This document shows, in pieces, positions 60,161 to 63,249 of a DNA stretch of 64,000 bases. The notes beneath the pieces are model-generated. The model saw only the letters and a list, made by a program, of their open reading frames with translations. It did no database searches and was not told the origin of the DNA. The translations under genes were made by a program, and so were the position numbers. Location: contig NZ_KB904680.1 of assembly GCF_000380165.1 (NCBI RefSeq), positions 1-64,000 on the forward strand. Reading direction: 5' to 3'. Positions within the stretch are counted from its first letter, which is position 1. Every line of letters begins with the position of its first letter. This DNA comes from Wenjunlia vitaminophila DSM 41686. GTDB taxonomy: Bacteria; Actinomycetota; Actinomycetes; Streptomycetales; Streptomycetaceae.

Positions 60161-60224
60161 CCCCGGCTGGTTCACCGACCGCCCGGGGCCGGGCCGATGA
60201 GGCCTACTGCTCACGCCCCCGGTC
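60161..60224. repeat. Diverged copy of the lipoprotein upstream region
   Basis: CCCCGGCTGGTTCACC, GGGCCGAT and TACTGCTCACGCCCC follow in the same order and spacing as in 58950-59013 upstream of the lipoprotein gene. Similarity stops at the stop codon of the fusion gene (60223). No gene copy follows it here; instead the fusion gene begins. Confidence 0.6.
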
Positions 60225-61797
60225 AGGAGTCCCGCCGTAGCGCCCTCCGCGGAGTCCCAGCAGGCACCCCCAACGCCTGTACCTCCGCGTAGGACAGGGT
60301 CGCACCCTCCACCGGTAGGCCGTCGCGGACGGCGGTCGCAGTGGTCACGGCCGCCGCCAGGGCGTTGCGGTAGAGCAGAGAGCCCAGGCTGATCCTGCGC
60401 ACGCCCAGCGCGGCCAGGTCGGCGAGGGTGGGTCCGGTCGGCGTGTACAGGATGTTCAGCGGCACGGTGAGGGTCGCGGTCAGGGCGGCGATCTGCTCCG
60501 GATCGGACAGCCCCGGCACGAACACCCCGTGGGCGCCGGCCTGTTCGTACACCGCGAGGCGTGTCTCGGTCTCCTCCTCCTGGCGTCCGAGCCAGTGGGT
60601 GTCGGTGCGGGCGTTCACGAACAACGCGGGCACCGCGGACCTGACCGCGGCAATCTTCGAGGCGTGCAGCTCCACTGGGGCGAGGGTGCCGTCGGGCCGC
60701 CCGTCCTCGAGGTTGATCCCCGCGGCGCCCACGTCGTACAGCCTTCCAGCCAGCTCGGCCACCTCCTCTGGGTCATCACTGAAACCGCCTTCGACGTCCA
60801 CGGTGAACAGGAAGGAGCCCCGTCCCAGCCGGCGGGCCAGAGCCAGGGTCTCCTCGACGGTCGCCGCCGCCCCGTCCGGCAGTCCGGCAGCCGCCGCCAC
60901 GCCGAGACTCGTGGTGCCGACCGCTTGGAAACCCCGCGCCACCAGCATGGCCGCGGAGGCGTGGTCCCAGGCGTTGGGCAGCAGCAGCGGGGCGGTCTGG
61001 TCATGCAGCCGGGCGAAGGCGGTCCGCGGGCGCCGGAGCAGACCGTCGGCCATGGCGAGGGCGTGGGCCCGACCGGGGCACACCCGCGGCGGCGCACCGA
61101 AGGTGAGGGGCACGGGGTGCGCACGGTTGGCGGTCGAGAGGTCCAGGAGCACCACATCACCCTCGGCGATCTCTCGCCCGGCGACCCGGGTGGCACGGGC
61201 GGCCACCCGACGCATGGCCGCCACCGGCGGAGCCTCCCGGAGCACCCGGGCCAGCGGCGCGTCGCTTCCAGCCGCGGCCTCCACCAGCGCAGCCGTCGCC
61301 GCGCAGGCCTGCACCAGCAGCCCGATGCGGTTGGCGGCAGTCTCCAGGGCGGCTTCGTCCGTGGCTCCTGGCACCAGCAGCGCCACCAGCCGGGCCACCG
61401 CCTCGTCCGCGGCTGCGTCCACCGCTGCGGCTCCGGCTCCGAAATACGCCCCGGCGACCACGGTCACCCCCTCAGCGACCGCCCCGGGCTCCGGCATCCC
61501 CAGAGCCTCGGCAAGGGCACGCACCACCCGTACCCGGACCTCCCCCTCGGGTCCTGCCGCGACCGCCCGCCGGAGTGCGGCGGGCTCCAGCCGGGCCAGT
61601 TCCGCCTCCACCAGGGCCCGCCGCCGCCGGTGGGACTCACCGGAGCTGAACCGGGCCACGGTGGCGCGCAGCCACGCGACGCTGGCCCCGGCCGGACCAC
61701 CGTCCGCAGCCGACGGCAGCTCCGGGACGAGCGCCGGGTCGGCGAGCGCCGCCGCGATATCCGCATGGTGGGTCAACTCGTGCATCGTGTGCGCCAT
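60223..61797 (-). CDS. Fusion of a truncated P450-like domain with a PEP-mutase/isocitrate-lyase-family domain
   Basis: One uninterrupted frame of 524 residues. Residues 1-255 look like a shortened cytochrome P450: VAAMRRVAARATRVAGREIAEGDVVLL matches the K-helix-to-sheet region and LTFGAPPRVCPGRAHALAMA (Cys240) the heme-thiolate loop, but the ExxR Glu is replaced (R184-VL-R187) and about 150 N-terminal residues of a normal P450 are absent. Residues 258-524 are a PEP-mutase-superfamily barrel: LLLPNAWDHASA, DVEGG (334-338), INLEDG. The C-terminal domain family typically cleaves or forms C-C or P-C bonds in 2-oxo acids. Divergent from a broken ArsR-type gene. The two halves are usually separate proteins. 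Confidence 0.8.
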   Translation of the reverse strand: MAHTMHELTHHADIAAALADPALVPELPSAADGGPAGASVAWLRATVARFSSGESHRRRRALVEAELARLEPAALRRAVAAGPEGEVRVRVVRALAEALGMPEPGAVAEGVTVVAGAYFGAGAAAVDAAADEAVARLVALLVPGATDEAALETAANRIGLLVQACAATAALVEAAAGSDAPLARVLREAPPVAAMRRVAARATRVAGREIAEGDVVLLDLSTANRAHPVPLTFGAPPRVCPGRAHALAMADGLLRRPRTAFARLHDQTAPLLLPNAWDHASAAMLVARGFQAVGTTSLGVAAAAGLPDGAAATVEETLALARRLGRGSFLFTVDVEGGFSDDPEEVAELAGRLYDVGAAGINLEDGRPDGTLAPVELHASKIAAVRSAVPALFVNARTDTHWLGRQEEETETRLAVYEQAGAHGVFVPGLSDPEQIAALTATLTVPLNILYTPTGPTLADLAALGVRRISLGSLLYRNALAAAVTTATAVRDGLPVEGATLSYAEVQALGVPAGTPRRALRRDS

Positions 61798-61818
61798 GGT
61801 CCCGACGCTAGGGCCGGA

Positions 61819-61842
61819 ACGGTTCGGTATCCCCCGAACCGT
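61819..61842. promoter_or_regulatory. 9-6-9 inverted repeat, likely ArsR-type operator
   Basis: ACGGTTCGG (61819-61827) and CCGAACCGT (61834-61842) around TATCCC, perfect in both arms, in the 60 bases between the fusion gene and the divergent regulator pseudogene. The position and size fit the operator of that regulator. Confidence 0.7.
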
Positions 61843-61856
61843 CCCTGCGCCATCAT

Positions 61857-62350
61857 GGCGTCAAGACTCCACTCGCGGAGCCCGCCGGCCTGTTCGCCGA
61901 CCGCACCCGGGCCGCCTTCTGTCAGGCGCTGCTCGACGGCCGCGTCTGGACGGCGGGCGAGCTCGCTCGGCACGCGGGGGTGCGGCCCTCGACCGCCAGC
62001 GAGCAGCTCTCCCGGCTCGTCGCCGGCGGACCGCTGACCGAAGAACGCCAGGGCCCGGCACCGCTACGTCCGGCTGGCCGGACCGGAGGTGGCCGCCCTG
62101 GTCGAAGCCCTCGCCCCGTACGCCCCGCGGACCCCGCACCCACGGAGTCTGCGCGAGTCGGTCCGGTTCAGCGCCGAAGCACACGCCCGCACCCGTGACG
62201 ACCACCTGGCGGGGCGGCTGGGCGTGGCCCTGGCCGACGCGATGGTCACCCGGGGCCTGGTCGCCACCGTCTCCGGGCTCGCCGTCACCCCGGAGGGCCG
62301 GGCCGCGCGAGGTCGAAAGAACCGACCCGCGTCCCGCGCTCCTCAACCGC
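61857..62350 (+). pseudogene. ArsR-type winged-helix regulator, frameshifted and truncated
   Basis: The first frame gives VKTPLAEPAGLFADRTRAAFCQALLDGRVWTAGELARHAGVRPSTASEQLSRLVAGG, a clear winged helix, but no ATG or GTG precedes it in frame. At about 62053 one extra C shifts the frame; the other frame continues with RHRYVRLAGPEVAALVEALAPYAP ... GLVATVSGLAVTPEGRA, the family's middle. The usual C-terminal third is lost just before copy B of the 71-base repeat. Relatives are normally divergent to PEP-mutase-like genes, as here. Confidence 0.8.
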
Positions 62351-62450: not shown

Positions 62451-63098
62451 CTACCCGTCCAGCAGGTCGTTCATGACGGCGATCTCGTCGGTCTGCGCGG
62501 TGACGATGGCCTTGGCGAGGTCCTTGGCGGGCTGGTAGGCGCCCTCGGACCGTTCGGTGGTGGCCATGTCCACGGCGCCCTCGTGGTGTTCGACCATCAT
62601 TCGCAGGAAAGCGGCGTCGAACGCCTCACCGGACAGCTTCTCCAGCTCGCCCATCTCCTTGTCGCTCATCATCCCCGGCATGCTGTCGTGACCGGAGTGG
62701 TCCATCCCGTGGGAGCCCTCCCCCCCGGCGTCCGCCGGGTCCTGCGGGACCTCCTCGCCCCAGCTCGTCAACCACCCGGACATGGTGGTGATCTCCGGGT
62801 CCTGCGCCTTCTTGATCTGCTCGGCGAGGTCCTTGACCTCCTTGGACGCGGCCCGGCCGGGGGCGAGGTCGGCCATGTCCACCGCCTGCCGGTGGTGCGG
62901 GATCATGCCCTGCGCGAACTGCACGTCCTGGGCGTTGTGGGCGTCGTCCACGGCCTGCGAGGCCGAACGACCCGCGGTGTTGGAGGGTGTTCCGGATGCC
63001 TCGTCCTCGTCCCCGCCACAGGCGGCGAGCACCACGGAGGCAGCGGCGAGGGCGATGGCGAGGGCGGCCCGGCGAACCCGGGAACGGTGTGTGGTCAT
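62451..63098 (-). CDS. DUF305 lipoprotein (ferritin-like, His/Met-rich)
   Basis: 215 residues. Signal peptide ending in the lipobox VVLAACGG, then two DUF305 repeats: FAQGMIPHHRQAVDMADLA and LRMMVEHHEGAVDMATTE, each with the HH-x5-M pattern, joined by a Met/His-rich loop (GMDHSGHDSMPGMMSDKEMGE). The family is exported and often found with copper genes, and such residues suit copper binding. I choose the ATG at 63098; upstream frame lacks a start signal. It follows a DUF6153 gene in the same direction. Confidence 0.9.
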   Translation of the reverse strand: MTTHRSRVRRAALAIALAAASVVLAACGGDEDEASGTPSNTAGRSASQAVDDAHNAQDVQFAQGMIPHHRQAVDMADLAPGRAASKEVKDLAEQIKKAQDPEITTMSGWLTSWGEEVPQDPADAGGEGSHGMDHSGHDSMPGMMSDKEMGELEKLSGEAFDAAFLRMMVEHHEGAVDMATTERSEGAYQPAKDLAKAIVTAQTDEIAVMNDLLDG

Positions 63099-63249
63099 GG
63101 TGTGGCAACTCCTGGGTGCACAGCGGTGCACGTCGGTGCCCCCGGCGTTGGCGCGAACGCGCGTCTACACCGGACGGGCACGCATGGTCGAAGGCAGCTC
63201 GGAGCACGGCCCGCCCCGGTGACGACCGGAGGCAGGCGTGCGGGTGCCT

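Follow-up and report, generated by a model that had tools for sequence, protein, structure and literature searches.

A compressed P450-like domain fused to a PEP-mutase-family barrel recurs in actinomycetes downstream of a shared operator-like element

Introduction

P450 fusion proteins, in which a P450 module and another catalytic domain share one chain, have been described in literature, with CYP116B and CYP5619 as examples (PMC8449657, PMC5919972). Departures from the canonical P450 sequence are known as well, as CYP157 comprises Streptomyces P450s without the canonical ExxR motif (PMC3599690). Within the PEP-mutase superfamily, DFA0005 (2ze3), 4mg4, 4lsb and 2qiw are single-domain as solved and none of them carries a P450 domain; 2ze3 was solved with alpha-ketoglutarate.

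Here, we describe a gene of Wenjunlia vitaminophila DSM 41686 that joins both kinds of domain, found in a window of 64,000 nucleotides, which is the whole stretch of DNA analysed. P450 fusions as such are already known; in this one, the P450 part is unusually reduced. The initial annotation, made from the sequence of the window, knew of no described enzyme with this architecture, and a search of open-licence full texts indeed yielded no paper on it, nor anything relevant on a P450 with a PEP mutase, on a truncated P450 in Streptomyces or on the regulon discussed below.

Architecture and recurrence of the fusion

The fused gene is located on the minus strand at 60223..61797, with its ATG at 61797, and encodes 524 residues. 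As annotated initially, one frame spans both halves, without a stop between them. The compressed P450-like domain (residues 1-256; 61030..61797, minus strand) is recognized by Pfam p450 matches in relatives and by an AlphaFold2 model; the PEP-mutase-family barrel (residues 257-524; 60226..61029, minus strand) by Pfam, structure matches and conserved metal and substrate residues. Comparison with unfused relatives, in which the PEP-mutase gene starts with M-T-P-F at this very point, places the junction at residues 253-261 (LLRRPRTAF; 61015..61041, minus strand).

A first survey covered 61 relatives and was then extended to 395 genomes from the same family. The N-half family was present in 49 of the 395, several of them with the same fusion; the one congener examined lacks the fused gene. 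In a wider scan, taking one genome per species over 84,980 species, 102 relatives were found and 80 loci retained. Both domains lie in one open frame at 41 of these 80 named actinomycete loci, so that the joined architecture does exist in other genomes and homologues do not always separate at residue 255. At another 23 loci the domains are encoded separately, with the PEP-mutase gene following at a short distance downstream (from a few bases to approximately 800), and at 16 no such PEP-mutase-family gene was found within the fetched flank. Fused members occur in Streptomyces, Planomonospora, Actinomadura, Rhizohabitans, Allonocardiopsis, Kitasatospora, Herbihabitans, Amycolatopsis, Saccharothrix and a Geodermatophilaceae MAG. 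In addition, three Streptomyces plasmids of approximately 1.2 Mb (NZ_CP108269.1, NZ_CP108310.1 and NZ_CP109331.1) carry an unbroken, unannotated match of 89% identity to residues 156-513, junction included.

In unfused relatives, the downstream protein often opens with M-T-P-F-A-A-L-H; at the same place, the window clade has (L/R)-T-(A/P)-F-A-R-L-H without a break in the frame, which suggests that a former start codon of the second gene now lies inside the joint reading frame. The C-domain tree (77 rows) and the N-domain tree (83 rows) are each explained most parsimoniously by five switches in the fused state, of which at least three are forced by supported branches. The window clade is wholly fused in both trees (36 rows with an SH-aLRT support of 97, 37 rows with 99). 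Other linkers are found in L113, L117, L136/L140 and L137, as is expected of separate fusion events. Pairwise dN/dS within the fused clade ranges from 0.22 to 0.49 for the N half and from 0.18 to 0.33 for the C half, which indicates that both halves are maintained by purifying selection. The P450-derived/PEP-mutase-family fusion is a genuine two-domain protein.

The N-terminal domain: a predicted, compressed P450 fold

By itself, the N half of the window protein gives weak P450 signals and stays below the cut-off of Pfam PF00067. The N domains of relatives score above the Pfam P450 cut-off (8.4e-14 for L005, 1.5e-13 for L041, 8.3e-12 for L046 and 1.2e-8 for L043), and a profile of nine members retrieved 369 PDB sequences at E ≤0.001, the best 60 of which are all P450s. 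AlphaFold2 predicted the structure with a pLDDT of 92.4 and a pTM of 0.89 for residues 1-260 (60-row alignment), and of 92.2 and 0.90 for the whole protein. As a search with the full-length model listed barrel matches only, the N domain was modelled and searched separately, and P450s were found throughout its best 50 matches. The best of these is P450BioI, with residues 2-260 of the model lying on residues 35-364 of the chain (Z 22.5, rmsd 3.5 over 256 residues). Compared to P450BioI, the N half lacks approximately 34 residues at its start, approximately 70 within the chain, the meander among them, and the part that follows the L helix, i.e., the C-terminal sheet. The meander is gone in both alignment and model. 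Moreover, the predicted I helix (148-175) is followed after only six residues by the K helix (182-188), which leaves no room for a J helix. The N-terminal third was initially thought to be absent; since the model aligns from residue 2 onward, model and alignment rule out an N-terminally truncated remnant. The N half is, as modelled, a P450 fold compressed throughout.

Less reduced relatives adjoining a PEP-mutase gene (L013, L016, L121 and L139) retain the meander, the ExxR motif and the C-terminal strand region. A series of reduction stages leading from such proteins to domains of 250 residues is plausible. In a further group (L089, L096-L100, L102, L103, L106, L111, L114, L116 and L131), the P450-like protein has an extra C-terminal domain of approximately 140 residues, which occurs in many Kitasatospora and Streptomyces, has sub-threshold similarity to the mycothiol maleylpyruvate isomerase N-terminal domain and DinB_2, and is not present in the fused clade.

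Heme shell and catalytic residues

The C-helix heme-propionate motif His56-x-x-x-Arg60 (61618..61632, minus strand) is invariant in the 60-row alignment, and Cys240, the expected heme thiolate ligand (61078..61080, minus strand), is invariant wherever aligned and lies within FGAPPRVCPG, as had been noticed earlier. Invariant in the 60 sequences are L43, R44, R49, F50, H56, R60, Y118, A133, L137, A155, L161, Q163, A164, L171, R196, R197, F233, C240 and P241. Of these, H56 and R60 (C-helix HxxxR), R197 (beta1-4), F233 and C240, together with R/H238, are presumably heme contacts. From the Cys-loop consensus FxxGx[H/R]xCxG, the window protein has F233, R238, C240 and G242, with a Pro instead of the expected Gly at 236. 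The Cys-loop flank is degraded in one fused member (L120).

The K-helix ExxR position (61237..61248, minus strand) reads R184-V-L-R187; the Glu has indeed been lost, as initially annotated, being replaced by Arg184, and Arg187 is retained. Both Glu and Arg are present in 19 of the 83 N-domain rows, with nine changes at Glu184 along the tree; a long meander is found in 13 rows, with seven changes. S. smyrnaeus and S. spirodelae, the earliest branches of the fused clade in the N-domain tree, retain ExxR, so that loss of the Glu probably followed the fusion. The I helix of the window protein reads Q163-A-C-A-A-T168 and lacks the acid-alcohol pair. Almost all members have Ala167 in place of the Thr of this pair, and 17 of the 37 window-clade rows have Ala at the acid position 166. 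As most of the window clade is without the ERR triad and nearly half of it without the I-helix acid as well, heme affinity is possibly low.

The contrast between an invariant heme shell and repeatedly eroded ExxR and oxygen-activation residues points to a putative heme-thiolate role other than monooxygenation. This pattern suggests that the domain has been kept for something else than ordinary P450 chemistry. The earlier suggestion of a non-heme regulatory leftover becomes less likely, given the invariance of the heme shell.

The C-terminal domain: a PEP-mutase-family barrel

The barrel had been annotated as complete, which is borne out by a full-length Pfam PEP_mutase match over residues 261-490 (E 1.9e-70); against PF13714 the C half scores 237.6 bits, with a cut-off of 31.5. 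Its closest structures are 4mg4 (Z 31.9), 4lsb, DFA0005 (2ze3) and 2qiw, with Z values of 29-32 and 32-39% identity. D308, D334, E336, E364, D365, N395 and R397 are invariant in 77 C domains, and we take them, from what is known of the superfamily, to form the site for a divalent metal and a 2-oxo-acid.

The C half scores 52.2 bits against TIGR02317 (2-methylisocitrate lyase; equivalog cut-off 354.4) and 23.9 bits against TIGR02320 (phosphoenolpyruvate mutase; equivalog cut-off 319.55). In addition, the C half lacks the catalytic K-R/K-C-G-H loop of 2-methylisocitrate lyase, as seen in its alignment to petal death protein, where this loop reads K-K-C-G-H. With scores approximately 300 bits short and the catalytic loop missing, a canonical PEP mutase or methylisocitrate lyase is ruled out, and with the lyase Cys loop gone, the isocitrate-lyase-type function initially considered for the barrel is not supported. 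Judging from its conserved residues, the C half would belong to the uncharacterised DFA0005/4mg4 branch as an active metal enzyme, probably with a 2-oxo-acid or enolate-type substrate.

An operator-like element and its putative regulon

Upstream comparison revealed an operator-like palindrome, TTCGG-N6-CCGAA (61823..61838, minus strand), followed by a -10-like hexamer, TAGCGT (61805..61810, minus strand), 7 nt before the ATG, a spacing that is conserved in 41 sites. An exact palindrome is present in 60 of 79 upstream regions, compared to none of 1580 shuffles. Its long form, TTCGG-N6-CCGAA-N12-TAnnnT, was found in 21 of 22 genomes with the P450-like gene vs. 5 of 22 without; a reversed control pattern gave no matches in the same genome comparison. 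In the genomes without the P450-like gene, the sites precede two flavin-reductase genes and one ArsR gene, besides two ambiguous sites.

The genome of the window has two copies, the second of which (L142, G000:C17:273-306) precedes a flavin-reductase-domain gene by 7 nt. This pairing is repeated in eight further genomes with the P450-like gene, which makes nine with that of the window. When the 41 sites in the window genome and the 22 genomes with a P450-like gene were classified by the downstream gene, which starts 6-8 nt away, this gene was P450-like or fused in 22 cases (with one site, at a contig end in G070, scored from its first 22 residues, and two of the 41 sites assigned by coordinates alone), flavin-reductase-domain in nine, PEP-mutase-family in four and phosphotriesterase-family in three; the others are one MFS, one OsmC and one ArsR gene. 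In four Catenulispora-type genomes, the element precedes a separate PEP-mutase gene, with its ATG at +7, and the P450-like gene stands alone elsewhere, which argues for a partnership kept in trans; among the 16 loci without a nearby PEP-mutase gene, the PEP-mutase promoter was checked in Catenulispora only. Among all these occurrences, those in single genomes or in Catenulispora are before L168, L180 and L181 (phosphotriesterase family), L178 (MFS), L164 (OsmC), and L173 and L183 (ArsR), which outlines a small regulon. The mix of exporter, OsmC, phosphotriesterase, flavin reductase and ArsR would suit the removal of a toxic or electrophilic compound.

A divergent upstream gene of the ArsR family (Pfam HTH_20, HTH_5) is present at 43 of the 80 loci; the element may be under ArsR control. 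In the window, sequence comparison shows this gene (61866..62307, plus strand) to be frameshifted near residue 63 and shortened; a relative without stops and with 62% identity lies at C2:290551 in the same genome. Two DUF305 copies, i.e., the gene at 62451-63131 and a partial copy across the fused gene from it, flank the fused gene together with the defunct ArsR gene, with direct repeats 59952-60121/62857-63026 (95%) and 59879-59991/62358-62470 (81%). These flanking repeats suggest insertion through recombination or duplication.

Proposed function and alternatives

We propose, at a probability of roughly one half, that the fused protein is a two-domain enzyme that belongs to a detoxification regulon under ArsR control and in which the heme-thiolate and PEP-mutase-family domains act jointly. 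The N domain would be a compressed P450 fold that probably binds heme via Cys240, although the residues of the ERR triad and of canonical oxygen activation are gone. The C domain would be a metal-dependent enzyme of the PEP-mutase/isocitrate-lyase superfamily, with a 2-oxo-acid or an enolate-type compound as its probable substrate. Both domains may serve one pathway, given that the fusion arose repeatedly, that the genes are otherwise mostly adjacent and that in Catenulispora the same operator is found when they are apart. Most likely, this pathway would remove a toxic or electrophilic metabolite under ArsR control, with the co-regulated flavin-reductase-like protein as a possible electron source. 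The proposal is weakened by the possibly low heme affinity, the broken ArsR gene of the window, the 16 loci without a nearby PEP-mutase gene and the degraded Cys-loop flank of L120.

Such a heme-thiolate partner enzyme is favoured over other readings of the N domain. It is rather doubtful that the domain has decayed to a P450 scaffold without catalysis of its own, whether heme-bound or not, which would stabilise or oligomerise the PEP-mutase-family enzyme or sense a ligand or redox state for it: the loss of the ERR Glu, the meander and the oxygen-activation Thr and acid would fit this idea, as would a model devoid of J helix and meander and the fact that Catenulispora and Kribbella encode the domain alone, but the heme shell including Cys240 is invariant across divergent, independently shrinking lineages, so that heme seems to have been kept. 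A role as heme-bound sensor is possible. Quite improbable is a working mini-P450, i.e., a monooxygenase or peroxygenase for some small compound, whose oxidised product the PEP-mutase-family domain would then cleave. Such activity would agree with the less eroded relatives L005, L013, L016, L121 and L139, which have ExxR, the meander and the I-helix acid, and with the presence of the same element before a flavin-reductase-like gene. However, the catalytic Thr position is Ala167 nearly throughout, the acid is lost in the window protein and the F-G lid region is short. Finally, the frameshift in the neighbouring ArsR gene could raise the thought that the fused frame is a chance product of sequencing or assembly error, or a recent pseudogene. 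This is hardly credible, as in-frame junctions, the same or different ones, recur at 41 loci, the trees place several changes to or from fusion, and both halves are under purifying selection; an artefact or pseudogene was rejected on these grounds.

Besides the heme-thiolate partner enzyme itself, a wider proposal can be made, if only tentatively: that actinobacteria harbour a widespread family of mini-P450 heme-thiolate proteins without the ERR triad, dedicated to a PEP-mutase-family partner, fused or in trans, in an ArsR-controlled detoxification regulon that includes a flavin-reductase-like protein. If true, bond cleavage would here be coupled to a new heme chemistry or to heme sensing. The natural series from near-complete P450s to domains of 250 residues offers a direct test of what the P450 fold minimally needs. 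Moreover, the recurrent fusion and the shared operator-like element suggest a definite pathway, open to testing, for a branch of the PEP-mutase superfamily that is uncharacterised and present in many genomes under uninformative names.

Comparison with known systems

In known P450 fusions such as CYP116B and CYP5619, the partners are redox domains or a peroxidase/dioxygenase; a PEP-mutase partner was not found in the open-licence literature. The C half shares with DFA0005, 4mg4, 4lsb and 2qiw the barrel, the metal-site residues and a short loop after the Glu-Asp pair. PrpB, PEP mutase and petal death protein have the same superfamily fold, but their K-K-C-G-H loop has no counterpart here.

For the N half, the nearest solved folds are the cytochrome P450s P450BioI (3ejd/3ejb), CalO2 (3buj) and StaP (2z3t). 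Common features are the fold over 256 of 260 residues, the Cys loop apart from the Pro at 236, the C-helix HxxxR and the beta1-4 Arg. In contrast, the N half has approximately 250 residues compared to approximately 400 in P450s, is without J helix, meander and C-terminal sheet, shows no ERR triad in most window-clade members and has QACxAT instead of AGxxT in the I helix. CYP157 offers a parallel in that ExxR can be dispensable in a P450-family protein (PMC3599690). However, CYP157 loses the Arg (EVLW or EQSLW), whereas the clade described here loses the Glu as well as the meander and is far shorter.
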